Positions 1,740 through 29,376 of a stretch of 35,021 nucleotides of DNA are shown here, in pieces. A program made the translations under genes and the position numbers. The stretch covers positions 1-35,021 of the IMG/VR virus record IMGVR_UViG_3300048590_001437. One strand, given 5' to 3'. Under the pieces are notes generated by a model. The model did not search any database, was not told where the DNA came from, and saw only the letters and a program-made list of their open reading frames with translations. This stretch comes from a virus. Position 1 is the first letter of the stretch. Each line of letters starts with the position of its first letter.

Positions 1740-1759
1740 CAGGGCTTCTCAAAAGTCGT
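1740..1759 (+). repeat. ISAs1 left terminal inverted repeat
   Basis: This 20-bp terminal repeat is identical to the reverse complement of 3026-3045 and marks the transposase-promoter-side end of the element. Confidence 0.9.
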
Positions 1760-1829
1760 TGGAACGGGAGGGACTCCCTAGGGTAGACTGAGGTTTACCA
1801 AGACCAAACAGCTACGCAGGAGTCCCAAG

Positions 1830-3020
1830 ATGCAATGTACCATAGAAGTGAGAGGGGAAGATAGGTATACGGCCGCGCAAATCGAGAGTCTTTACCGGAA
1901 GCTACAAGCGGTGCCGGATTATCGCCATAAGCGCGGGAGACGTTATGAGACAGCGACCGTCATGGTCATCATCCTGTTGGCGAAGATGGCGGGACAAGAG
2001 AGCATCAGTGGGATTGCAGAGTGGGCAAGTTTGCGCGAGGGATGGCTCAAAGCGGCGCTAGGGTTGCGGCGTATGCCCTGTGCCAATACCTATGCCTACA
2101 TTTGCACACACCTGGACACCCTTGAACTCGCGGCTCAGCTTGCGACCTATTTTGAGCAGTGCGAGCCGGAGGAAGGGTGTGCAGAACAGGCCGAGGATCA
2201 AGAAAACAGCGCAGCATTAGAACATTGGGTGATCGATGGTAAAGTGCTGTGCGGGAGCCATCGTCAGGCACCGCCCAGCCGCAGTGGGCAGGAAGTCCTC
2301 AATGTCTATGCGGTGGAGCAAGGGTATCTCAAACACTGTCAACCGATTGCGAGCAAAGGCTATGAGGCTGCGACTGCCCAAGCCTTCATCGCCCAAAGCG
2401 ATTGTGCGGGCAAGGTCATCACCGCCGATGCCTTGCATACCCGTCCGCGTTTCTGTCGGCAGATTCGCCGTCAGCCGGGCGAGTATGTCCTCGTGGTCAA
2501 AGGAAATCGTCCGGAATTAGAGGGGGAGATTCGTCAGCTCTTTGCACTTGCCCCTGACCCATCCTGCCCCGTGCAAACGGCCAGAACGGTAGACAAGGGG
2601 CATGGGCGCTTGACGGTGCGTCAGTTGTCGACCAGCAGTGAGTTGAATTTGGCGGTCGCGACCGAATGGCGTGATGCGGCCCAAGTCTTTTTGCTGGAAC
2701 GCTGGGTCACGCGGCACGGCAAGACCTCCTATGCATCTGTCTGTGGCCTCACCAGTCTTTCGGCACACAAAGCCTCCCCGGCTAAGCTTTTGGCGCTGGT
2801 TCGTGCCCACTGGCACATTGAGAATCGTTGTCACTGGCGCCGCGATGCCACTTTGGGTGAGGATCGTTGCACAGTTCGCCAGCCACGAGTTGCCACGGTC
2901 TTAGCGGTGCTCAATTCGACCCTGCTTGCCCTCTTCGACCATTTGAAAATCACCAATGCTCGTAAAGCGAGGCGAGTCTATGATGCCCACCCGCATCTTG
3001 CCCTGGCGCTGCTCATTTAA
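1830..3020 (+). CDS. ISAs1-family DDE transposase
   Basis: The 396-residue protein is a cut-and-paste transposase. The N-terminus (residues 15-90, including the LQAVPDYRHKRGRRYE segment and AKMAGQESISGIAEW) matches the DDE_Tnp_1-associated domain of ISAs1/H-repeat proteins. The catalytic domain shows D136 in VIDGK, D200 in ITADALHT and E331 in HWHIENRCHW, in the family's usual spacing. The family is also recognised by VVKGNRP near residue 223. The start at 1830 has an AGGAG ribosome site about 9 nt upstream. The gene is full length with no frameshift, so the element may still be active. It lies between perfect terminal repeats. Confidence 0.95.
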   Translation: MQCTIEVRGEDRYTAAQIESLYRKLQAVPDYRHKRGRRYETATVMVIILLAKMAGQESISGIAEWASLREGWLKAALGLRRMPCANTYAYICTHLDTLELAAQLATYFEQCEPEEGCAEQAEDQENSAALEHWVIDGKVLCGSHRQAPPSRSGQEVLNVYAVEQGYLKHCQPIASKGYEAATAQAFIAQSDCAGKVITADALHTRPRFCRQIRRQPGEYVLVVKGNRPELEGEIRQLFALAPDPSCPVQTARTVDKGHGRLTVRQLSTSSELNLAVATEWRDAAQVFLLERWVTRHGKTSYASVCGLTSLSAHKASPAKLLALVRAHWHIENRCHWRRDATLGEDRCTVRQPRVATVLAVLNSTLLALFDHLKITNARKARRVYDAHPHLALALLI

Positions 3021-3025
3021 CTCTT

Positions 3026-3045
3026 ACGACTTTTGAGAAGCCCTG
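3026..3045 (-). repeat. ISAs1 right terminal inverted repeat
   Basis: This is the perfect 20-bp partner of 1740-1759. It starts 6 nt after the transposase stop codon. Confidence 0.9.
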
Positions 3046-3063: not shown

Positions 3064-3092
3064 TTGTTGTCGCCCAGAACTCATGCTATACT
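3064..3092 (+). promoter_or_regulatory. Sigma-70-like promoter with no gene behind it
   Basis: TTGTTG at 3064-3069 and TATACT at 3087-3092 are separated by 17 nt on the plus strand, a good match to a housekeeping promoter. There is no plus-strand gene downstream, only the antisense of the phage MuF gene. It may be left over from a gene removed when this junction formed. Confidence 0.3.
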
Positions 3093-3185
3093 AAACACAT
3101 AACCGCTTGAGGTAGAGATTCTGCCGCTACGCCCGGATCCAGCGCAAGCTAAGGGTATGTGGGGGATGGCAGGCCCACCAGGCGG

Positions 3186-4403
3186 TTACTTCTTTTGCCA
3201 CAGGCGACGCCCGCGCTCCCTTCCTTGCATAACTTCTTTTTCGTTTGCCAAACGGAAACTATGCACCGAATTGCGCAGATCGTCTCGCTCCGAAATCCAG
3301 ACGGTTGCTCGCAAATAGCGCCCATCCGGCAATCGGCGATACCAGATGCCGATTTGATCGTCGCGCACATCGCGATGAATTTCATCTGGCTCAAACAGTG
3401 TGCGCAGCAAATCTCCCTCAAATTCAATCACATCCAGATGCCGTGCCAAGTAGTGCGCGCGTCGCTCACCTGTCAGCACAACCGTATCTGTCGTTCTTGT
3501 CGGCCACTTCCGCAAAACCATGTCGGAAATATCACGTCGCCACGTTCCTATCGATACCACTTGCTGCGGGTCGGTCAATGTTTCAATCTGCCGAGCAATC
3601 GTCTCGTCAGCACCCGGCGTGGGTACGGCGTCTACCGCGTCATCCGACCCGACCACAGGGGCAATCCAGCACCGACAGCGTGGGTGTGCCGGCGGACCGC
3701 TCAACCCACCGGGGAATTCTTCGTCCAGCCCTACAATCACTCCCTGTAATGGTCCGCAGATAGGACAAACCAATTCATCGTTTGCCGTCTGCCATTCGCG
3801 CTGCTCAATAATCCCCCCAGCCTCCCAGGCTGCTCGATTGCCTTCGGCATAGGCCCGTGTAACCTCTGTGACGGCAATCAGCTCAGCCCGTTCCCGGCTA
3901 AAGACTGTCGTCTCCAGGGCCTCAATGAGGTCGCGCAACGGCAGCCCATTGCGAATCCATTCACCAATTTCTGCCCGCATCACGCCTTCACTTGTCTGTG
4001 CCAGCGCCGCAGCCAACACATCGCCATAGCCCGTGCCAAATGCACCCTGCCCGCCAAGAACCCAGTCCAGCACCGCCTGATTCACCATCTCCCAGTCAGT
4101 GGCCACCACACGCACCTCATTGGCAGTGTATCCTTTTACACCCAATAAGGCTTCGACCTGGCTTCGCCCCACGGCGGCCCCTGCCAGTCCGGCCTCACGC
4201 AACATCGCCACCAGCGCATCACGCAGCAGCCCCCCTGCCTCGCGATAGCGGTCCATTGCGGCCTGGGGTGTGAGGGTGCTTTCGCGTGTGCCGGGCGGCA
4301 GTACCGTGCGCAGCAGCTTGGCAAAGGCGCGCGCAATTGCCTCCGCATGGGTATTCTCCAACTTCTCCCGCTGCGCCAACCCGCCGTCGGCGACACCAGG
4401 CAA
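3186..4403 (-). CDS. Phage MuF head-morphogenesis protein with C-terminal RelE/barnase-like nuclease domain
   Basis: The protein has 405 residues. Residues about 130-250 form the MuF (SPP1 gp7-like) domain, with helical VTEVTRAYAEGNRAAW, then W204 and the metal-site pattern CPICGPLQG (213-221) and HPRCRCW (240-246). MuF proteins sit at the portal vertex and may be injected with DNA. Residues about 300-400 do not belong to MuF. They carry GERRAHYLARH (312-322), a strand-rich stretch with LFEPDEIHRD and WYRRLPDGRYLRATVWI, and a basic tail. This layout resembles the phage barnase/EndoU/ColicinE5/RelE-like (PBECR) nuclease domains found on MuF polymorphic toxins. The first codon at 4403 is TTG, 7 nt after the portal stop, and the true start is uncertain. 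No immunity gene follows; the next feature is the ISAs1 element. MuF is confident; nuclease activity is inferred from motif pattern. Confidence 0.85.
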   Translation of the reverse strand: MPGVADGGLAQREKLENTHAEAIARAFAKLLRTVLPPGTRESTLTPQAAMDRYREAGGLLRDALVAMLREAGLAGAAVGRSQVEALLGVKGYTANEVRVVATDWEMVNQAVLDWVLGGQGAFGTGYGDVLAAALAQTSEGVMRAEIGEWIRNGLPLRDLIEALETTVFSRERAELIAVTEVTRAYAEGNRAAWEAGGIIEQREWQTANDELVCPICGPLQGVIVGLDEEFPGGLSGPPAHPRCRCWIAPVVGSDDAVDAVPTPGADETIARQIETLTDPQQVVSIGTWRRDISDMVLRKWPTRTTDTVVLTGERRAHYLARHLDVIEFEGDLLRTLFEPDEIHRDVRDDQIGIWYRRLPDGRYLRATVWISERDDLRNSVHSFRLANEKEVMQGRERGRRLWQKK

Positions 4404-4410
4404 CCTGAGC

Positions 4411-5883
4411 TTATGGGTAGTTGGCCCAACGAAAGGGGGCGGTGTTGGCCGCCATCACCTCCTCCCCGCGCGGGGCGAGGGGTTGCGTTGTCTGGCCAGG
4501 CAAGCTTGTCGGCATAAGTGGCGTGGGACGCGGGACGACAGCACGTCTATCGAGAGGTTTTACCAGCGCCCGCACAAATTCTGCCACGTCCACCACGGTG
4601 TCTGTACCGGCCAGCAATTTCGAGAGCGCTTCAGCATATTCCTTGGCGACTACGGCGTCAGTCTGTGCATCGGCCTCACGCACCTCCGGCCAGCGCACCA
4701 CATAGCGCCCCGAAGCCGGCTTGGGCAGTACTCCGGCATAGACCAGCCGATTGATGAGCGGGCGCAGAATCATCGGCTCGGCAAAATTGCGTTGGCGACC
4801 GCCGATATAGCGCGCCCAGTTTTTTTCATCTTGGGAGCTTGCCAGTTCGCCTCGCTCCGACCCCAAGAGCAATCTTTGAGGGATGTTGGTCGTGGCGGCA
4901 ATCAGCGCCACATTGAGGTCAACCAAGCCGGAGGGGTCCACCACCTCACCCCCAGCCACGGTTACATCCATCCCCTCCAGTTGCAGAAAGCGCTGCAACC
5001 CATGAATATACTCTTCGATTTTCTCCTCTGTCTGTGCGTCGGTCGTATCTAGTCGATAGCCGTCGCGTGTGGAGAGAATCAGCCCCTTGTAAAGGAGCTT
5101 CCAGGCTGCTTCGCCCGCCCCGGCCATGATTTTTTCTAAATCGAGCAGCCGATTCCATGCAGAACGCAGCCGGGGCGTGCCGAAAATCTCGTCGCCCTTT
5201 AGCCCCTCGGCAATGTGCACCACGCGCGTCCAATGTACCGGCTTGGGGGCGAGTGATTCGCCCTGCAAATTTGTGCCTAGTGCCAGTCGATAGCGCAGCG
5301 GCAGCCCATAGCGCCGGCTGGTCGGGTCATTGTCTAACTCCAGCAAATCGGCGTCGCCCTCATCAAAGACACTGAGAAAGAGATAGCCGTCCAGTCCGCT
5401 TACTTTGCTGCGAGCAAGTGGCTGGTCCAGCGGCTGCCCGTCGTTGATGCCCAACAGCAGCACGCCATAGCGCCCCACGCCGGCAAGCTCATCGGCCCGA
5501 CGTAGGTAATGCCATACTGTGCGGCGGTCGGCCAACTCGTCACCCACATCTTCAATCGAAACAAACTCGTTCCAGGCTTGGATAAACTGGGTATCGTCGC
5601 GGCCATCTTCCAGTTGGGTGCCGTCGAGGATCTGAGGTGGTTCGCGCCAGGTCTCCGCCGCGGGTGCATCCACGATCCGGGCGGCGATGTCCTGCCGTTC
5701 ATAGCGCACCCGATATTGATCGAACTCGATGTGGATGTCATAGCCGGCGGCATCATAGATATCACGCAGCCCAGCAAACTGCATCCCCAGCGCACCGCTT
5801 AACTGTCGGCGCGCTTCTACCAACGCATTTGTACGCAATGCTGTCATCTGGATATGTTCTGTCTCTGCCGCCCCTGTTGCCAT
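4411..5883 (-). CDS. Phage portal protein (DUF1073-like)
   Basis: The 490-residue protein would form the dodecameric portal ring through which DNA is packaged. The N-terminal part YDIHIEFDQYRVRYERQDIAARIVDAPAAETWREPPQI, followed later by GTPRLRSAWNRLLDLEKIMAGAGEAAWKL and LLGSERGELASSQDEKNWARYI, is typical of the DUF1073 portal family. That family often sits beside Mu-type terminases and MuF proteins, as here. The open frame extends upstream to 6108, but that part overlaps the large terminase. I chose the ATG at 5883 because a GGGAGGGG ribosome site lies 4-6 nt ahead of it. It lies between the large terminase and MuF on the same strand. Confidence 0.85.
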   Translation of the reverse strand: MATGAAETEHIQMTALRTNALVEARRQLSGALGMQFAGLRDIYDAAGYDIHIEFDQYRVRYERQDIAARIVDAPAAETWREPPQILDGTQLEDGRDDTQFIQAWNEFVSIEDVGDELADRRTVWHYLRRADELAGVGRYGVLLLGINDGQPLDQPLARSKVSGLDGYLFLSVFDEGDADLLELDNDPTSRRYGLPLRYRLALGTNLQGESLAPKPVHWTRVVHIAEGLKGDEIFGTPRLRSAWNRLLDLEKIMAGAGEAAWKLLYKGLILSTRDGYRLDTTDAQTEEKIEEYIHGLQRFLQLEGMDVTVAGGEVVDPSGLVDLNVALIAATTNIPQRLLLGSERGELASSQDEKNWARYIGGRQRNFAEPMILRPLINRLVYAGVLPKPASGRYVVRWPEVREADAQTDAVVAKEYAEALSKLLAGTDTVVDVAEFVRALVKPLDRRAVVPRPTPLMPTSLPGQTTQPLAPRGEEVMAANTAPFRWANYP

Positions 5884-5897
5884 TGCCCCTCCCATCT

Positions 5898-5920
5898 GGC
5901 GATAATAAGGAGTTATCGCC
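5898..5920. repeat. Copy 1 of the GGCGATAA-N7-TTATCGCC palindrome
   Basis: A perfect 8-bp inverted repeat with a 7-nt spacer (TAAGGAG), in the gap between the terminase stop (5936) and the portal start (5883). It directly precedes the portal ribosome site. It is one of six copies in the window with the same arms and the same spacer length. Confidence 0.75.
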
Positions 5921-5935
5921 CCATAATTTGTTCGT

Positions 5936-7372
5936 TCACCGCGCTCGTGCAACTTTGGCCCGGTCGCTTTGTGGCCCATGTCCAGCGCCCAGCGCCAACA
6001 CCCATGCCCAAAATTTATCAGCGTGATGCTTCTCATTGGTTTCTGTGTCAAAGACCAGGTTGTTGCTCGATGTACGCATGCGTTTGATGGAGTGAATCTG
6101 ATAAGCAAGCTCGCGGTTCACCGGTAAGGGTGTGCGCTTTTGCTGGATCAGCATCTTTGCATCAGTCGCCCAGACCAGCTTGCTGCCCGCCGAGAAATTT
6201 TGGCCCACGGCCTTTCCAGGATAGAGCCGTTCCATCTTCTCTGCGATCTGCATACCCAGCCCCGAACGATCAATCCACAACGCAGTGATCGGCAGGTAGC
6301 GCATAACGTACTGTAAAACGGCCAACTGCTCGTCGAACTCTACCCCGTCCAGCGTTACGCCCAGGCGCAATGGATAATGTTTCGTCGTCGCCAATCCTAC
6401 AGCATAGATCTCCGTAGTGTTGCGTGTGCGACCGATGTCAACGCCGACGGCGAGTGCGCCCTCGACATCTCCAGCATTGATCGAGCGGCGTAATTCATCA
6501 ATGGCTGCGTAGACCAACTCCAGCGCCTTGCCGTTGCCTGTCGCCAACACACAGCACAACTCCTCATCCTGTGCGTCGCGAATTTCCTCCCAGGTGATCC
6601 AGGCCGTGGACTCATCGACGAACGCCGTTTCATATTCCTGTGCAAAATCTTCTTCAGGGATGTTGGCGTGAATTTCCTGAATGCGTTGATTGCCGAAGCG
6701 TGCAACGCGCTCGCCCGTGGAGAGGGTAGGCGCCACCTGTCGCGCCGTGCGTACATCTGTGCAAAAAGCATAGGTCTCCCACCAGGGTGTACGGCGACGC
6801 ACGTAGCCGGGATAGGTCCGCAGCTTTTCTTCAAAGACCTCCCAAAACGTGCCGCTTGACCCAAACGGCGATGATCCCATACGCAGCCGTCCGCCTTTGG
6901 AGATGATCGGCAGCGCTGCGGCATAGATGGGTTTGTCGCCTTTGACGTGGGCAAATTCGTCGAGATAAATGTTTGACCGCGCCCGCCCGCGTGGTGGCCG
7001 GGCCGGCAGCGAAGTCAGCCGCGCGCCGTTGTCCAACTCCAGCCCAAACATGTTGTCGCGTGCAACGCGCGGCAAGCCGCCGATCTCCAGTGCCCCATAG
7101 ATTTGCCGGGCGTAGCGGATTTTCTCTGCCGCTTCCTCTCGGTTGATAGAGACAAAGATGCCGTCGCGCTTCCCCAGAATGGCATCGGCAAGGGCATCCG
7201 CGGCGCACACAAAGCTGAACGCAATCTGGCGGCTTTTGTTGTCGATGCGAAAGGTGCCTTCGTCGTCAAGGAAGGCAATTTGAAACGCTTCCCACCGTGC
7301 GCCTGGCACGCCGGAAGCCGCTTCAAGGTTCAGGTTATCGACCAGAAACTGCCGGCGCAGCGATGCCCCCAT
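5936..7372 (-). CDS. terL: Phage terminase large subunit (Mu gp28/Terminase_6 type)
   Basis: The 478-residue protein is the packaging ATPase and nuclease that cuts and pumps phage DNA into the head through the portal. A Walker A-like segment NKSRQIAFS lies at 45-53; like the Mu gp28 group it lacks the classic GKT. Walker B is NIYLDE at 134-139, and a motif III-like GSSPFGSSGTFW lies at 166-177. The RNase-H-fold nuclease has acidic residues D312 (GVDIGRTRN), D368 (LWIDRSG) and D452 (HHADKFWAW). The start at 7372 overlaps the upstream gene's TAA by one base (TAATG), with GAGGAA just ahead. The longer frame to 7423 lacks support. It is followed by the portal gene on the same strand. Confidence 0.92.
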   Translation of the reverse strand: MGASLRRQFLVDNLNLEAASGVPGARWEAFQIAFLDDEGTFRIDNKSRQIAFSFVCAADALADAILGKRDGIFVSINREEAAEKIRYARQIYGALEIGGLPRVARDNMFGLELDNGARLTSLPARPPRGRARSNIYLDEFAHVKGDKPIYAAALPIISKGGRLRMGSSPFGSSGTFWEVFEEKLRTYPGYVRRRTPWWETYAFCTDVRTARQVAPTLSTGERVARFGNQRIQEIHANIPEEDFAQEYETAFVDESTAWITWEEIRDAQDEELCCVLATGNGKALELVYAAIDELRRSINAGDVEGALAVGVDIGRTRNTTEIYAVGLATTKHYPLRLGVTLDGVEFDEQLAVLQYVMRYLPITALWIDRSGLGMQIAEKMERLYPGKAVGQNFSAGSKLVWATDAKMLIQQKRTPLPVNRELAYQIHSIKRMRTSSNNLVFDTETNEKHHADKFWAWVLALGAGHGPQSDRAKVARAR

Positions 7373-7947
7373 TATTCCTCCGGCGCACCCTTGCTGATTT
7401 GCTGCACCTTGCTCGCGATGCACCTATGCCAATAGATGCGCACCGTCGCACCGGCCAGCAGCGCGCTGATAAAGTCATGGTCGCCGGCATAGTGGTCGCC
7501 CCATGCCCAGGCGTGCTCCTGCCAAACCTTGCGGCGCACAATCGGCGCACTCACGCCCACAAAACCGGCACCGAGGTTACGATGGCCCCAATGTTCAGCG
7601 GGCGGCAGCACACCCCGCTCGCCATGGTCCATCTGCACCATCACCACATCGGGGCCATGCGTTTCCACAATCGTTTTCAAGTCGGCGACCAGCGTGGGGC
7701 AGATACAGGTGTCATCATCGTCCAACACCCAGATGTACTCGCCGACCAACCGCGGCCCTTCTCGTCGCATCCGCTGATTCGCCCACGCTACGCCTCGACC
7801 AACTCGATCCGGCAATAAGGTCTGTACCCAGTCCGGATCGGTTTGCATTACCAGACTGGCTTGGCTCAGCATCAGCATCTGGGGCCGCTTATAACAGCGG
7901 GTCAAAATCTCCAGGAAGGGAGGGGCGATCTCACGTTTCGTCGGCAT
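7372..7947 (-). CDS. Glycosyltransferase family 2-like protein between the terminase genes
   Basis: This encodes 191 residues of a small GT-A-fold enzyme. The opening PPFLEILTRCYKRPQMLMLSQASLVMQ is the nucleotide-binding strand-helix of GT2 enzymes. YIWVLDDDDTC (about 80-90) holds the D-x-D metal site for the nucleotide sugar. GDHYAGDHDFISALL (about 155-170) fits the acceptor-side ED/HD motif. At under 200 residues it is a minimal catalytic domain with no membrane segment. The ATG at 7947 is preceded by GGAGGATGAGG and overlaps the end of the small terminase; its stop overlaps the large terminase start. Its position inside the packaging operon is unusual. Possible roles are glycosylating virion proteins, modified DNA or host surface sugars; the substrate is unknown. 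Confidence 0.78.
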   Translation of the reverse strand: MPTKREIAPPFLEILTRCYKRPQMLMLSQASLVMQTDPDWVQTLLPDRVGRGVAWANQRMRREGPRLVGEYIWVLDDDDTCICPTLVADLKTIVETHGPDVVMVQMDHGERGVLPPAEHWGHRNLGAGFVGVSAPIVRRKVWQEHAWAWGDHYAGDHDFISALLAGATVRIYWHRCIASKVQQISKGAPEE

Positions 7948-13413: not shown

Positions 13414-15255
13414 ATGTCGCACGCTGAACAGATCACCCTGACTTCTGCTGACATCACCGCAGACCGTCTCGCCGCGCTCAAAGAGCTTATTCCCGAAGCG
13501 TTTACGGAAGGCAAGATCGACTTTGCCAAGCTGCGCGCGGCGCTGGGCGATTTCGTTGACGAAAGCCCCGAACGCTACACCTTCACGTGGGCCGGCAAGC
13601 GCGACGCCATGCGCCAACTTCAAGCGCCCACCAACGCCACGCTCGTTCCCGCGCCGGAAGAGTCCATCAACTGGGACACCACCCAGCATCTCTTCATTGA
13701 AGGCGACAACCTGGAAGTGCTGAAGCTGCTCTACAAACCCTACTTCGGCAAGGTCAAGCTCATCTACATCGACCCGCCCTACAACACCGGTAACGACTTC
13801 ATCTACCCAGATGACTACAAAGACCCGCTGCGTCCGTACCTGCAAATGACGGGGCAAATGGATGGCGAAGGCAATCGGTTCACCAGCAACTCAGAGTCGA
13901 GCGGTCGCTACCATTCGGCGTGGCTCAACATGATGTACCCGCGCCTGTTCATTGCGCGCCAGCTATTGCGAGATGATGGGGTTATTTTTGCCACGATTGA
14001 CGACAACGAGGCAGCTAACTTCGTCTTGCTAATGAACGAAATCTTTGGTGGGGAAAACTTCATAACGTCTATTGCTTGGCAAAAAAAGGTGTCTCCTTCA
14101 AATGATTCAAAATGGTTTAGTAGTGACCACGATCAACTCTTGGTATATGCAAAAAACAAGGAAATCTGGCGACCATATCGACTACCAATGAATGAAAGGC
14201 AGAGATCATATTATCAGAATCCAGATAACGATCCTCGTGGCCCTTGGAATTCTTCTACCTACACCTGCAACAAGACGAAGGGCGAAAGACCAAATCTTTA
14301 CTATCCAATTGTAAATCCGAACACCGGTCACGAAGTATGGCCCAGCGAAACGGCTGTTTGGGCTTACTCTCGTGATGTGAACGAAGAACACGCAGCCGCA
14401 AACATGTTGTATTGGGGGAAAGATGGTAAGGCTGCCAGACCGCGCTTCAAAAAATTCCTGGGAAAGAATGCATCTGTGGTACCGCGTACAGTATGGTCCT
14501 ATTCCGAAGTGGGAAGTACGCAATCTGCAACACAAGCACTTCAAAGTCTACTACCTGGCGTGAAATTTGAGACTCCAAAACCACCGGCTCTAGTCAAAAG
14601 AATTGTGCAAATCGCTACACTGCCGAATTCATCTGATATTGTACTTGATTTCTTTGCTGGTTCAGGCACTAGTGCCCAAGCCGTTCTTGAACTCAATACG
14701 GAAAACCAAGGAAATCGGAAAGTTATATTAGTTCAACTTCCCGAAGCCACATATAGCGCTGATTTCCCCACCATCGCGGACATCGCCAAAGAGCGCATCC
14801 GCCGTGTGATTGCTCGTCAAACAGCCGAACAGTCGCCAGACGCGATAACCGACCTCGGCTTCCGTGTCTTCAAACTTGCCCCTTCCCACTTCCGTGACTG
14901 GACCGGCGTCACCGCGCCCAATCCCGATGACTATGTGGAACAGATGTCGATCTTTGATGACCCATTGTCGCGCGGCGTCGATCCCCAAGCCGTCATTTGG
15001 GAGATTGCCATCAAAGAGGGTTATCCTCCTACCAGCCAGATCACACTCGTCGCCGTCCCCGACCATACCGTTTACTGCGTTACCGATCCGGACGCCGACC
15101 GTAGCTTCCACATTTGCCTGGACGATCACGTCAAGCATGAGGTTGTGCTTGCCTTGGGGCTTGCTGCCGAAGACCTCTTTATCTGTCGTGACTTTGCCCT
15201 CGACGACAGCACCGCCGCCAACCTCGCCCTGCAATGTCGCCTCAAGGTCATCTAG
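13414..15255 (+). CDS. mod: Type III restriction-modification DNA adenine methyltransferase (Mod)
   Basis: The 613-residue beta-class N6-adenine methyltransferase recognises an asymmetric site and methylates one strand, giving the complex its specificity. The catalytic motif IV is DPPYNTGNDF at 120-129, and the AdoMet-binding motif I comes later as DFFAGSGTSAQAVLEL (412-427), the beta-class order. The target-recognition region lies between them. From about 13,970 to 14,760 the DNA becomes distinctly AT-richer, with different codon use, then returns sharply to GC-rich sequence. This suggests that the specificity segment was swapped in by recombination. The C-terminal part (about 470-613) is the Res-contacting region. 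The frame is intact. The next gene starts 3 nt after the stop, so mod-res form an operon. Confidence 0.95.
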   Translation: MSHAEQITLTSADITADRLAALKELIPEAFTEGKIDFAKLRAALGDFVDESPERYTFTWAGKRDAMRQLQAPTNATLVPAPEESINWDTTQHLFIEGDNLEVLKLLYKPYFGKVKLIYIDPPYNTGNDFIYPDDYKDPLRPYLQMTGQMDGEGNRFTSNSESSGRYHSAWLNMMYPRLFIARQLLRDDGVIFATIDDNEAANFVLLMNEIFGGENFITSIAWQKKVSPSNDSKWFSSDHDQLLVYAKNKEIWRPYRLPMNERQRSYYQNPDNDPRGPWNSSTYTCNKTKGERPNLYYPIVNPNTGHEVWPSETAVWAYSRDVNEEHAAANMLYWGKDGKAARPRFKKFLGKNASVVPRTVWSYSEVGSTQSATQALQSLLPGVKFETPKPPALVKRIVQIATLPNSSDIVLDFFAGSGTSAQAVLELNTENQGNRKVILVQLPEATYSADFPTIADIAKERIRRVIARQTAEQSPDAITDLGFRVFKLAPSHFRDWTGVTAPNPDDYVEQMSIFDDPLSRGVDPQAVIWEIAIKEGYPPTSQITLVAVPDHTVYCVTDPDADRSFHICLDDHVKHEVVLALGLAAEDLFICRDFALDDSTAANLALQCRLKVI

Positions 15256-15258
15256 CGC

Positions 15259-18147
15259 ATGTCGCCTGCCACCATGCAGTTTCAATTCGACCCGAACCAG
15301 GACTTCCAACTGGAAGCCATCGCTGCCGTGGCCGACCTTTTTGACGGCCAACGCCGCAATGAGCGTGGCTTTTTCTTCCAGTTTGGCGCGATTCCCGCGG
15401 TTCCGAATCGGCTTGACTTGTCCGACGAGGACCTGCTCCGCAACCTGCAAGCCGTACAACGGCACAGCTTCGACCCGCTGGGCGAAGACCCTGCCTACCG
15501 CGGCGACGATCAGCTTCAATACCTGACCGGCGAAGCCGTCACCGCCAAAGGCCCGCAGACCATCCGCTTCCCCAACTTTTCCGTGGAGATGGAAACCGGC
15601 ACGGGCAAGACCTACGTCTACCTGCGTACCGCGCTTGAACTATTTCGCCGTTACGCCTTTCGCAAATTCATCATCGTTGTCCCTTCCGTTGCCATTCGTG
15701 AAGGCGTACTCAAGACCCTGCAAGTCACCCGCGCCCACTTTCGTGCTCTCTTCGACAACGCTCCCTACCGCTACTATGCCTATGACTCGGCCAACCTGAG
15801 CCAAGTCCGCCAGTTCGCCCTGGCCGAAAGTGTTGAGTTCATGGTCATGACCTTGGCCGCTTTCAACAAGACTGACATCAACGTCATCCACCAATCGACC
15901 GACCGCTTACAAGGCGAGACACCCGTTCATCTCATCCAGGCCGCCCGCCCGATCCTGATCTTGGATGAACCCCAGAACATGGAGAGCGAACAGAGCATTG
16001 CCGCGCTTGCCACGCTCAACCCGCTCTTTGCCTTGCGTTACAGCGCCACACACCGCGTCCCCTATAACGTGGTCTATCGTCTGACTCCAGCCGCCGCCTA
16101 TCGCCGTGGCTTGGTCAAACGCATTGAGGTTGCTTCGGCCCAAGAAGAGGGCCATGCTTACCGGCCCCATATCCGGCTCATCAACATCAAAGCCAGCAAG
16201 CGCACCCTCACGGCCCAGCTTGCCATCCACAAGGTCATGCGCAATGGCGACATTCGCGAGATGACCTTCACCGTCAAACCCGGCGCATCACTTCTTCTGC
16301 TTTCCGAGGGCCACACCGTCTACGAAGGCTATGAGGTGGATGAAATCAACGCTGCCTACGGCTTTGTGCGCTTTGCAAACAGCGAAGAAGTCCGTCTCGC
16401 GGAAGTAGCAGGCGACAACCGCGACGCCATCTTCGAGGCCCAAATCCGCTATACCATCCAAGAACATATTCGCAAGCAAAAGCGCTATCAAGCTTTGGGG
16501 CTAAAAGTGCTTTCGCTCTTTTTCATAGACCGCGTAGATAACTATGCGCCCGACGATGGCATCATTCGCACTCTGTTCAATCAAGCTTTCGATGAGTACA
16601 AGGCCGAAATCCCGAAATGGAAGAATCTCTCGGCGGATGAAGTCCAGGCCGCTTATTTTGCCCAGCGCCGCACCCGCTCCGGCGAAACCATTCTGGAAGA
16701 CTCAAAGACCGGTGCATCCGCCAAAGACCGCGACGCCTATGAACTCATTATGCGTGACAAGGAGCGGCTGCTTGCCTTCGATGAGCCGGTGGCCTTCATC
16801 TTCACCCATTCGGCGCTGCGCGAAGGTTGGGATAACCCCAACGTCTTTCAAATCTGCACCCTCAACCAGTCTGTCTCAGATGTAAAGAAACGCCAAGAGA
16901 TCGGACGTGGCGTGCGTCTGGCCGTCAACCAGGATGGCGAACGCACCCACGACGACAGTGTCAACGTCCTGACGGTCATCGCCAATCAGAACTATGAAGA
17001 GTATGTGCGCCAGCTTCAGGGCGAGATCACCGAGGAATATCGGCTGGAGATCGAAACCCGCTTTGGCAAGCCCTTCAACGAGTTGACGGATGAGGAACGG
17101 CGCAAGGTTGCTCGCGAATATGGCGAAATCCTTCCGCCCAAGCCCGCCAATGCGCGTCGCCGCAATCGCATTTACCTGAAAAAAGAAGTCCAACTCAAGC
17201 CGGAGTTCCGCGAACTTTGGGAGCGTATCAGCCAAAAGACATACTACCGTGTCCAGATCAATTCGGAGACGTTGATTGATTCTGTCATTAAGGAGCTAAA
17301 CAAGGTTCATATCCAACCGCCGCGCATCGCCATCACCAAGGCGGCTGTTGATGTTAACTTCGTCGATGTCTTTGAAGCATGGCAGATGAGCGCATCCAAA
17401 ACGTTGGTCAACTTGGCCGGTCGCTATCCCCTGCCCAATCTTATTGACCTCATGATGCAGTTGTTGGAACACACGTCACCGCCCATGCGTGTGACACGAC
17501 GCACACTATGGGAGATCATCAGCCGGGTAGATAACCGGCAACAGTTCGTAGATAACCCGGTTGATTGGGCGACCGCGGCAGTCTCGATCATCAAGCAGAA
17601 GTTGTCCGACCAGTTGAGCGACGGGATTGCCTACTATAAGACCGACGACACCTACTCTATGACGCAGTTCGAGCCGTTCATCGAATCATGGGAGCAATAC
17701 ATCGTCCCGGTCGAACATAGTGCCTATGATGGGGTCATTGTGGATTCGGATGTGGAGCGCAGATTTGTACAAGAACTGGAACGGCGCAGAGATGTCGTCT
17801 TTTACCTCAAGCTACCTGACTGGTTCAAAGTTCCCACACCTATCGGCAACTACAACCCAGACTGGGCAATTGCCATGCGCGACCCGGATGCGCCTGCCGG
17901 CACCGAACCGCTACTGTTTCTGATTGCCGAAACCAAGGGGAGTGATAATCTTGCTCTCCTTCGGTCCCAGAAGGAACTCTTCAAAATCGGCTTTGCCGAG
18001 CGCCATTTTATCGATGCTCTGGGTATTGCGTACAGAGTGGTCAGTGCTACAGGCCAACTACCCGAGTATGACAAGCTCTCCGCCGAGACTCAGGAACGTC
18101 TGTTGGCAGAGCAGGCGCAAATTCACAACAAGACCTTGTCGGGTTAG
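15259..18147 (+). CDS. res: Type III restriction enzyme ATP-dependent helicase/endonuclease (Res)
   Basis: The 962-residue protein uses ATP to move or signal along DNA after binding with Mod, and cleaves unmethylated DNA. SF2 helicase motifs are clear: Walker A ETGTGKT at 112-118, motif II LDEPQ at 235-239 (DExx box) and a motif VI-like QEIGRGVRL. The C-terminal nuclease is PD-(D/E)XK type, with NPDW at 866-869 and AETKG at 890-894. All key residues are present, so the enzyme looks functional. The annotated ATG follows the mod stop by 3 nt; an internal ATG at 15274 is an alternative start. The operon lies on the plus strand, opposite to the phage genes on both sides, consistent with inserted cargo. 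Confidence 0.95.
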   Translation: MSPATMQFQFDPNQDFQLEAIAAVADLFDGQRRNERGFFFQFGAIPAVPNRLDLSDEDLLRNLQAVQRHSFDPLGEDPAYRGDDQLQYLTGEAVTAKGPQTIRFPNFSVEMETGTGKTYVYLRTALELFRRYAFRKFIIVVPSVAIREGVLKTLQVTRAHFRALFDNAPYRYYAYDSANLSQVRQFALAESVEFMVMTLAAFNKTDINVIHQSTDRLQGETPVHLIQAARPILILDEPQNMESEQSIAALATLNPLFALRYSATHRVPYNVVYRLTPAAAYRRGLVKRIEVASAQEEGHAYRPHIRLINIKASKRTLTAQLAIHKVMRNGDIREMTFTVKPGASLLLLSEGHTVYEGYEVDEINAAYGFVRFANSEEVRLAEVAGDNRDAIFEAQIRYTIQEHIRKQKRYQALGLKVLSLFFIDRVDNYAPDDGIIRTLFNQAFDEYKAEIPKWKNLSADEVQAAYFAQRRTRSGETILEDSKTGASAKDRDAYELIMRDKERLLAFDEPVAFIFTHSALREGWDNPNVFQICTLNQSVSDVKKRQEIGRGVRLAVNQDGERTHDDSVNVLTVIANQNYEEYVRQLQGEITEEYRLEIETRFGKPFNELTDEERRKVAREYGEILPPKPANARRRNRIYLKKEVQLKPEFRELWERISQKTYYRVQINSETLIDSVIKELNKVHIQPPRIAITKAAVDVNFVDVFEAWQMSASKTLVNLAGRYPLPNLIDLMMQLLEHTSPPMRVTRRTLWEIISRVDNRQQFVDNPVDWATAAVSIIKQKLSDQLSDGIAYYKTDDTYSMTQFEPFIESWEQYIVPVEHSAYDGVIVDSDVERRFVQELERRRDVVFYLKLPDWFKVPTPIGNYNPDWAIAMRDPDAPAGTEPLLFLIAETKGSDNLALLRSQKELFKIGFAERHFIDALGIAYRVVSATGQLPEYDKLSAETQERLLAEQAQIHNKTLSG

Positions 18148-18196
18148 TTTGCAAGATGCAAGGCGTTTGATCCACAATCGTCACCTATCTTGCAAA
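18148..18196. terminator. Inverted repeat at the convergent res/methylase junction
   Basis: TTTGCAAGAT (18148-18157) directly after the res stop pairs with ATCTTGCAAA (18187-18196), a perfect 10-bp repeat with a 29-nt loop. It spans the ends of the two convergent genes. Without a T-tract it is a doubtful terminator. It could also mark the edge of the inserted cargo block. Confidence 0.4.
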
Positions 18197-19006
18197 AAGC
18201 TGAGGACGTATGGCTGCATTTGGACTGATCCACAGCACTTCGGTGCGTTCCCGTGCCCCGTCGGCGTGGGCGGCTCGCTCGATGCGCGTCCAGTCGGGAT
18301 AGAGTACAAAATCGTACAAGTCACAGGCATAGCCCGATACAATCACCATGCCATGTAGCCCGCGCAGCACCGTCGCCAACTCTCGGTGGTCATCATCGGT
18401 CATCTCGTGCCGATAGTGCGCGCCGCTTTGCATCGCACGTGTACTGTGCGGATAGGGCGGGTCAACGTAGTGCAGCGTCTCCGGGCTATCGTATCGCACT
18501 AAAACAGTGGCTGCCTTGTCGTGCTCAATCACTACCCCGCGCAGCCGTTCAATCGCACTACTTAGCGCGTGTGGCATGTTCCGCCAATCATGCGCGGGGA
18601 TCGTGCCCGCGCGAGTTGTGTTGGCACGGAAGCCGGTATTGCGGTGCACACCATTCGACCCAAAGCCCGCAAACGACCGAAACATCGTGCGCCGGGCTTG
18701 CTCAATCGGATCATCATCGGCTAGATAAGAGGCTTCAAATTCCAATCGAGAAAAAGGTGTTAGCTCGATCAGCCGAATCAGTTCGCCCGCTTGGGCCGGG
18801 TTGCGCAGCACCCGGAATAGGTTGACCACCTCCCCGTCTAGGTCGTTGTACACCTCGGCATAGGCGCGGCTCTTGCGCAGCAGCACACTCGCCGCGCCGC
18901 CAAACGCCTCGGTGTAAATTCGATGCTCTGGAAAATGGCCGACAATCCACGGGGCCAAGCGCCATTTGCCCCCGTAATAGCGCAACACGGGTCGTGGGGC
19001 GGTCAT
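18185..19006 (-). CDS. D12-class (Dam-like) adenine-specific DNA methyltransferase
   Basis: The 273-residue alpha-class N6-adenine methyltransferase has RYYGGKWRLAPWI at 9-21 and EAFGGAASVLL at 33-43 (AdoMet-binding motif I). YNDLDGEVVNLFRVLR follows at 53-68, and the catalytic DPPYP lies at 182-186. The length matches the Dam/D12 family. No cognate restriction gene is adjacent on this strand, so it is an orphan phage methylase. Such enzymes commonly protect phage DNA from host restriction. A ribosome site AAAGGA lies about 10 nt before the ATG. It is the last gene of the long leftward early run before the opposite-strand cargo. Confidence 0.93.
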   Translation of the reverse strand: MTAPRPVLRYYGGKWRLAPWIVGHFPEHRIYTEAFGGAASVLLRKSRAYAEVYNDLDGEVVNLFRVLRNPAQAGELIRLIELTPFSRLEFEASYLADDDPIEQARRTMFRSFAGFGSNGVHRNTGFRANTTRAGTIPAHDWRNMPHALSSAIERLRGVVIEHDKAATVLVRYDSPETLHYVDPPYPHSTRAMQSGAHYRHEMTDDDHRELATVLRGLHGMVIVSGYACDLYDFVLYPDWTRIERAAHADGARERTEVLWISPNAAIRPQLFAR

Positions 19007-28152: not shown

Positions 28153-29376
28153 CTACAGGTTGAGCGAGAGCTTTTGCCAAATGCCCTCGGAGTAGTCGTC
28201 CGAAGGGTCTTGCAGCGACCGCACATAGATGCCGGTCGTCGCCAACGATTCGTGGTGGAGAATCTTGCGCAGCTTCTCCAGGTCTCCCTGAAAAAGATGT
28301 GCAAAGGAATGGCGCAGGTCATGCACGCGGTACTTGTTCCAGTCGGACACACCCGCTTTGCGCAACGATGTCTGAAATATGCGCACTGCATTCTTTTCAG
28401 AGATATAGCCACGCGGCTTGCGTCCACGCTGTGCGCTTTCCAGATTGCTGATCCCGTGTGTGACTAACGGTGCCCAAATGAATCCATCATCTTGGATGTG
28501 GTCCTCATGTCCCGGCAGATAGCGTCCGGCCAACTTCAGATAATGGACAATCGCATGATAGGCACGCGCAGGCAGCACGGTGTCCTCTTCCTTGCCCCCC
28601 TTGCCCCGCCAGGCAAACACGTAGCTTCCTGGTTGGCTACGACTTGGGCGGATGTCCCCCCATTTCATTTGCAGGACTTCCCGATTGCGGCTCGCCGTCA
28701 GAAAATAGCTCAGGATCAGGGCGAAGTTGCGCGCCCCGGTCACATTCTCTTGATGCGCCTGCAAATAACCGAAGAGTTTGCCCAACGTGGCTGCCGAGAG
28801 GGGACGTGCTTTGCCATACTGCCGCACCTTGGCACGCCGAATGTTGCCCACGCGGAACGGGTTGGCCCGCGTGGTGCCGTTGGCATCAAAGAAGGCTGTG
28901 CGCTCGACGCCGTCCACCATGTGGACCTCGTTGATCACAAACGAATACCAACTGGAGACCGCCGACATGCGCGCGTTGACCGTGGCATCGGTATTGCCGG
29001 ACGCGGCCATGCGACTTTGCCATCCGCGCACATGTGCCGTCGTGGCCGTCCAGGGTTGCACCCCCAAATCACCCAGATAATCCAGCCACAAATTGGTGGC
29101 TTTCATATAGGCGCGGCGCGTGTGCCGGCTTTGGCTGCGATCCTCCGCCGCGTCCAACCACGTGTCGCGCAGACGGTACCAAAGCCGGCGCAGGTTCTCC
29201 GCTGCAATCTCCGGGTCCACCTGCCACATCGTGGCCAGCGGATGCACTGCGCCCATCTCATCGCACAAATCTTGCGCCGGGTCTCTTCTCCCGCCGGCCA
29301 CCACCAAGACCGCATCTTGGGGCAACACATCTACCATTACACCGTTCGAGGAAAACTGCTTGAGGTTCGAGGTCAC
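28153..29376 (-). CDS. int: Tyrosine site-specific recombinase (phage integrase)
   Basis: This encodes 407 residues. The N-terminal SAM-like core-binding domain spans about 85-190 (SRHTRRAYMKATNLWLDYLGDL and later helices). The catalytic domain has the first Arg in TASRNREVLQMKWGDI (near residue 235). It then has H352 and R355 in HDLRHSFAH, H375 in the HHES segment, and the nucleophile Y384 in TTGIYVRS. All active-site residues are present. It inserts and excises element DNA at an att site. Unusually, it is in the interior of the gene run rather than beside an att site; no duplicated att core is visible next to it. A palindrome copy lies about 50 nt upstream of the start. The plus-strand open frame across this region is only its shadow. 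Confidence 0.93.
   Translation of the reverse strand: MTSNLKQFSSNGVMVDVLPQDAVLVVAGGRRDPAQDLCDEMGAVHPLATMWQVDPEIAAENLRRLWYRLRDTWLDAAEDRSQSRHTRRAYMKATNLWLDYLGDLGVQPWTATTAHVRGWQSRMAASGNTDATVNARMSAVSSWYSFVINEVHMVDGVERTAFFDANGTTRANPFRVGNIRRAKVRQYGKARPLSAATLGKLFGYLQAHQENVTGARNFALILSYFLTASRNREVLQMKWGDIRPSRSQPGSYVFAWRGKGGKEEDTVLPARAYHAIVHYLKLAGRYLPGHEDHIQDDGFIWAPLVTHGISNLESAQRGRKPRGYISEKNAVRIFQTSLRKAGVSDWNKYRVHDLRHSFAHLFQGDLEKLRKILHHESLATTGIYVRSLQDPSDDYSEGIWQKLSLNL

Follow-up and report, generated by a model that had tools for sequence, protein, structure and literature searches.

A phage MuF head protein with a PBECR-type nuclease-like tail is linked to a skipping-rope RNA gene, its candidate antidote

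The DNA analysed here (the window) spans a complete virus record, 35,021 bases long. A tyrosine integrase gene at 28153–29376 on the minus strand (PF00589, E 1.2e-11) indicates that the phage is temperate. Also on the minus strand, the genes for the large terminase (5936–7423) and the portal protein (4411–6108; PF06381, E 2.3e-30) lie upstream of muF (3186–4403, minus strand), which encodes a minor head protein of 405 amino acids with a C-terminal nuclease-like tail. A TTG codon was taken as the start of muF, and this start is uncertain because the reading frame stays open to 4454. Past the 3′ end of muF are a skipping-rope RNA (RF02924) at 3102–3186 on the plus strand, which is convergent with muF and shares the final base of the muF stop codon, and an ISAs1-family insertion sequence (IS) at 1740–3045 on the plus strand, with a transposase gene at 1830–3020 and perfect 20-bp inverted repeats. 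A likely type III restriction-modification pair was observed at 13414–18147, and the phage also carries a Dam-type (D12) methyltransferase (within the region 13414–19006).

Compared with copies on plasmids, the transposase shares at most about 34% identity, and searching genome contigs with the terminase and the transposase revealed no host. No target-site duplication is visible around the ISAs1 element, in keeping with a deletion or rearrangement next to the IS. The 1,739 bases to its left (1–1739) contain plus-strand ORFs without phage or Pfam match and are probably host or rearranged DNA. In the two closest IMG/VR relatives, the sister phages L001 and L002, further head genes follow MuF; these are absent beyond the IS of the window. 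In the original prediction the gene normally downstream had been removed at the IS-side junction. The gap between the IS and MuF is 140 bp long and is not empty, since it holds the skipping-rope RNA, placed intact between the end of the IS (3045) and the MuF stop codon.

The N-terminal part of the protein is a MuF protein, as had been predicted, with a Phage_Mu_F domain at residues 147–246 (3666–3965, minus strand; Pfam PF04233, E 1.3e-14) and a match to the SPP1_gp7 model of NCBIfam. The C-terminal module spans residues ~290–405. GC3 is 0.57 for residues 250–405 versus 0.64 for residues 1–250. Within the module, Smith-Waterman alignment with the gut-phage protein L004, an HMM built from relatives only, and an AlphaFold2 (AF2) model with fold search placed a PBECR-type core at residues 305–405 (3189–3491, minus strand). 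PBECR stands for phage-Barnase-EndoU-ColicinE5/D-RelE-like nuclease, a domain found fused to MuF and described by Iyer et al. 2017 (PMC5512222). A frame or assembly artefact was considered for the tail and rejected; the ORF is unbroken, and known head proteins have homologous tails.

Direct searches did not identify the tail: the window tail had no match in Pfam, the PBECR3 profile run directly against the window had none, a sequence search of the PDB returned nothing meaningful for the tail, and a peptide-pattern search of viral contigs found no close tail relatives. Alignment with L004 extended over about 100 residues of the window tail with a Smith-Waterman score of 89, as compared with a best score of 50 in 2000 shuffles. 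L004 belongs to PHROG 29609 and matches PBECR3 at 7e-7, just below the cut-off. A degenerate DNA pattern derived from the shared motifs (ERxxHxxxRH ... [RK]NSV) was then used to retrieve relatives; it gave four matches, two by chance and two true, and the true ones led to the remaining relatives. Seven other distinct phage head proteins have tails homologous to that of the window, and three of these relatives (L023, L024 and L030) score above the PBECR2 cut-off (PF18810). Identity between the window tail and its relatives is only 19–24%. In a search of 504 ORFs, an HMM built from the relatives with the window left out picked up the window tail at E 1.8e-5, with the runner-up at E 2.

Across the tail alignment E313, R314, H317, R321, H322, D340, D345, N378 and S379 are invariant, and position 382 is Ser or Thr. 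These residues fall largely in two motifs: GERRAHYLARH (residues 312–322; 3438–3470, minus strand), a helix in the AF2 model that contains the invariant columns E313, R314, H317, R321 and H322, and NSVHSF (residues 378–383; 3255–3272, minus strand), which lies in strand 4 and contains the conserved N378, S379 and S/T382. The helix histidine (H317/H322) and the strand-4 alcohol (S379/S382) are predicted to form the active site. For PBECR, PMC5512222 describes this configuration, a first-helix histidine and a strand-4 Ser/Thr.

An AF2 model from the single sequence had a pLDDT of 54 and its fold search was uninformative, so a model based on the alignment of relatives was used instead (pLDDT 75.5, pTM 0.72). 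This model has a helix (58–68) followed by strands 87–91, 97–103, 109–115 and 124–132, in agreement with the PBECR layout of an N-terminal helix and then 4–5 strands. Nearly all of the top 17 fold matches in the PDB were RNase-type toxins, with moderate scores (Z 3.8–6.4). The toxin of a Salmonella toxin-antitoxin complex gave Z 6.4, a CDI toxin 6.0 and BrnT 5.9, followed by RelE (5.1–5.4) and HigB (3.6–4.5). Viral fold matches were to minor capsid, MuF-C and nuclease proteins, with a best E of 9e-9. The original prediction of a PBECR-type nuclease-like module thus agrees with the relatives that pass PBECR2, with the HMM, with a BECR-like model resembling RelE, BrnT, HigB and CDI RNase toxins, and with the exchange of the tail in the sister phages. 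We consider the tail to be a PBECR-type domain with high confidence, and it presumably acts as an RNase. It is like PBECR (PF18810/PF18812) in its fusion to MuF, its predicted BECR fold, its helix His and strand-4 Ser/Thr, and its homology to PBECR2 members; it is unlike them in being too divergent for a direct Pfam match, and in being paired with a structured RNA, of which the excerpted text of PMC5512222 makes no mention.

Comparison with the two sister phages revealed that the tail is exchangeable. L001 and L002 share 62–66% with the window in the MuF region and 67–81% in the terminase. The window tail was sought in both and is absent from both: the MuF protein of L001 runs on into an HEVGH stretch that is metallopeptidase-like by eye, and the protein of L002 ends after MuF. 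With a metallopeptidase-like tail in one sister and no tail in the other, the window tail is a swappable cassette. The same tail, together with the RNA, was found on Phage_Mu_F, Phage_min_cap2 and VG15-like head proteins. These data bear on the alternative that the tail belongs to the MuF-C type, with a structural or early-infection role; it would then need no immunity, and the protein would not be a competition toxin. The weak MuF_C scores of the relatives are consistent with it, as is the PBECR-like MuF-C domain of classical Mu gp30 (PMC5512222). However, the predicted active-site His and Ser/Thr are conserved, and sisters that lack the domain or carry another one indicate that the tail is not a required structural part; we regard this alternative as very improbable.

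Both sisters also carry a MuF intein (PF14890, 325–330 aa) inserted at PPAHPRC (L001:5470–6435, minus strand; L002:6850–7830, minus strand), and the muF gene of the window has none. After the intein in L001 (6439–7197, plus strand), MuF ends in the metallopeptidase-like tail containing HEVGHFLDSHG, with no confident Pfam match. The antisense frame of the intein DNA encodes a conserved protein of 321–326 aa that has HTH and REase-like (MTES_1575/DUF559) matches and may be a homing endonuclease lying opposite its own intein. The intein and antisense frames are each about 60% identical between L001 and L002.

The skipping-rope RNA of the window scored 36.1 bits (E 1.2e-8 over 35 kb), and the RF02924 gathering cut-off is 36.7, 0.6 bits higher; in unrelated phage records the model scored at most 19.3 bits. 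Like RF02924 it has stems P1 (3102–3109/3179–3186), P2 (3112–3115/3127–3130) and P4 (3159–3163/3174–3178) and the pseudoknot (3120–3125/3168–3173). Unlike RF02924 it has an altered third stem (P3), without match to the family, and a different hairpin-forming stretch is found there. When the window RNA was aligned with those of six relatives, 99.4% of the cells in P1, P2, P4 and the pseudoknot were paired. Seven pairs changed on both sides, and none of 500 shuffles reached seven (mean 3.1). In P1 of the window A-U pairs are replaced by G-C, and one pseudoknot pair is changed from G-C to C-G. The element is almost certainly a genuine skipping-rope RNA. An extended −10 promoter, TGCTATACT (3084–3092, plus strand), ends 9 nt before the RNA; such sites occur four times on the plus strand of the 35 kb. 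This promoter is a suggestion only, since a generic sigma-70 scan finds none; standard sigma-70 and terminator scanning at the window RNA gave no site.

In the relatives, the conserved non-coding stretch 3′ of the tail gene was found by Rfam to be skipping-rope RNA as well. RF02924 was detected in all seven relative loci scanned (E 1e-13 to 6e-9), and each of the nine tail-bearing records outside the window has exactly one RNA over the cut-off. Three of these records (L027, L028 and L029) are near copies, leaving eight distinct cases of tail plus RNA including the window. Among phage records without the tail, a set that includes the two sisters, none of 13 has an RNA over the cut-off. At the seven loci measured, the RNA begins 29–43 nt past the toxin stop, and in all nine tail loci it is preceded by a promoter (TTTACA-17-TATAAT) that starts within the last toxin codons. 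The RNA of the relatives is on the same strand as the toxin gene and downstream of it, whereas that of the window is on the opposite strand and convergent. The window RNA shares 47–53 bases with the tail-linked RNAs, and its core fits the tail-linked subtype at 20 of 23 bases, not the unlinked subtype. The nine records are not independent, since the relatives are all of one subfamily and were found through shared motifs. The stronger argument for linkage is that the pairing persists although tail identity is as low as 19–24% and the window RNA has diverged. The linkage of RNA and toxin across divergent phages and different head proteins is well supported, and RNA and tail probably form a functional module. 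Two variants were seen among the near copies: in L028 and L029 a TAA just before 3971 splits MuF from the PBECR part, which form a single fused ORF in L027, and the third stem of the L027 RNA (4396–4518) has an insertion of roughly 43 nt.

No small immunity ORF is visible directly downstream of muF in the window. Among the relatives, the ORFs next to the toxin gene are dissimilar (e.g. metallopeptidase-like, HNH-like and scaffold-like proteins) and include no conserved small protein. The original prediction of no visible immunity gene therefore holds for an immunity protein, but an RNA gene occupies the gap between MuF and the IS. It also proposed looking in related prophages for a small gene after MuF; what the relatives have there is skipping-rope RNA instead of a conserved protein. 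The proposed loss of a cognate immunity partner was not borne out: what the relatives share is the RNA, not a protein, and the window RNA is intact.

Skipping-rope RNA also occurs away from the tail, in Enterocloster phages and in the Streptococcus satellite phage Javan99, neither with a tail relative. In the Enterocloster phages (L036 and L037:2999–3078) its neighbourhood is a non-head one that includes an NrdG-like gene. In Javan99 (L035:2999–3877) a Gp49/HigB-type gene with an XRE-like partner follows the RNA at a distance of about 145 nt, a single case which hints that the RNA class may serve BECR-fold RNases more widely. A search of plasmids and E. coli with the RNA consensus gave chance matches or none. 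The RNA could be a small RNA that the phage uses independently, regulating host or phage genes for example, often placed in this late-gene gap and with no direct action on the nuclease. Its occurrence in phages without the tail, its own promoter and its Rfam type, sRNA gene, are in keeping with this explanation. However, it is missing from the two sisters that share the head genes without the tail, its pairing with the tail is kept despite tail identity of 19–24%, differing head proteins and flipped orientation, and the core of the window RNA is that of the tail-linked subtype (20/23 bases), not the unlinked one. We therefore consider an independent small RNA rather unlikely.

A nuclease-like tail that is always accompanied by a pseudoknotted RNA, without an immunity protein, is most simply accounted for by an RNA antidote. 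In the mechanism that we propose, the MuF head protein of a temperate phage would bear a PBECR-type RNase domain with the BECR fold and bring it into the capsid, from which the RNase could pass into the next cell along with the DNA. The RNase domain would move as a two-part cassette with the skipping-rope RNA gene at its 3′ end. Made from its own promoter, the small pseudoknotted RNA would most likely bind and neutralise the RNase in the producing or lysogenic cell, replacing the usual immunity protein and acting like a type III antitoxin. Capsid loading and injection are taken from published proposals for MuF toxins (PMC5576092), and the neutralisation of protein by RNA is likewise presumed. 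We put the whole proposal, a MuF-PBECR RNase with an RNA cassette partner that is most likely an antidote, at slightly below an even chance; that the RNA acts as antidote of the tail nuclease is held a little more tentatively. Against an antidote, injected phage effectors may need no immunity. The occurrence of the RNA in phages without the tail, its opposite-strand position in the window, its score slightly short of the gathering cut-off, its altered third stem, the moderate fold-search scores and the origin of the relatives in one subfamily also count against the proposal.

The RNA may instead act on the MuF-nuclease as cofactor, substrate, packaging tether or expression control, for instance by keeping the enzyme inactive in the capsid or as an antisense to the 3′ end of muF in the window. 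Such a role would be compatible with the tight linkage, with the promoter that overlaps the toxin 3′ end in relatives and with the convergent overlap in the window. However, the antisense reading is inapplicable to the relatives, in which RNA and gene are on one strand, and nothing positive favours a cofactor; roles of this kind are improbable.

The proposed antidote has parallels in known systems. The window protein resembles the MuF polymorphic toxins (Jamet et al. 2017, PMC5576092) in that, within a temperate phage, a MuF N-terminus is joined to an exchangeable C-terminal toxin domain; unlike them, it has an RNA gene in the place of a small immunity ORF. Such a downstream ORF is usual but not universal for MuF polymorphic toxins (89%; PMC5576092). 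ToxI, an RNA pseudoknot, counteracts the RNase ToxN (PMC5772629), and the RNA RCd22 neutralises the phage-encoded AbiF via direct binding (PMC12373285). As in ToxIN and AbiF-RCd22, an RNase-type toxin here stands beside a small structured RNA, which is pseudoknotted in ToxI. Unlike in type III toxin-antitoxin systems, there is one RNA copy, downstream or convergent, with no upstream repeat array, and the toxin fold of the window is RelE-like and fused to a capsid protein. With no upstream array and a RelE-like fold, the pair departs from the canonical type III arrangement.

MuF-PBECR fusions and skipping-rope RNA were each already known, and priority for their linkage is unproven. In the literature searched, which comprised papers other than the original description of the RNA, neither a function assigned to skipping-rope RNA nor a report linking it with MuF-PBECR was found. 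That the skipping-rope RNAs linked to the tail are in general RNA antidotes of capsid-borne RNase toxins, with RNA instead of protein immunity, is possible, and we hold it more cautiously still than the antidote role itself. Looking for a small immunity ORF alone can miss the partner of a toxin. If the RNA does neutralise the nuclease, immunity to phage polymorphic toxins can be provided by an RNA, and an orphan RNA class would gain its first function.
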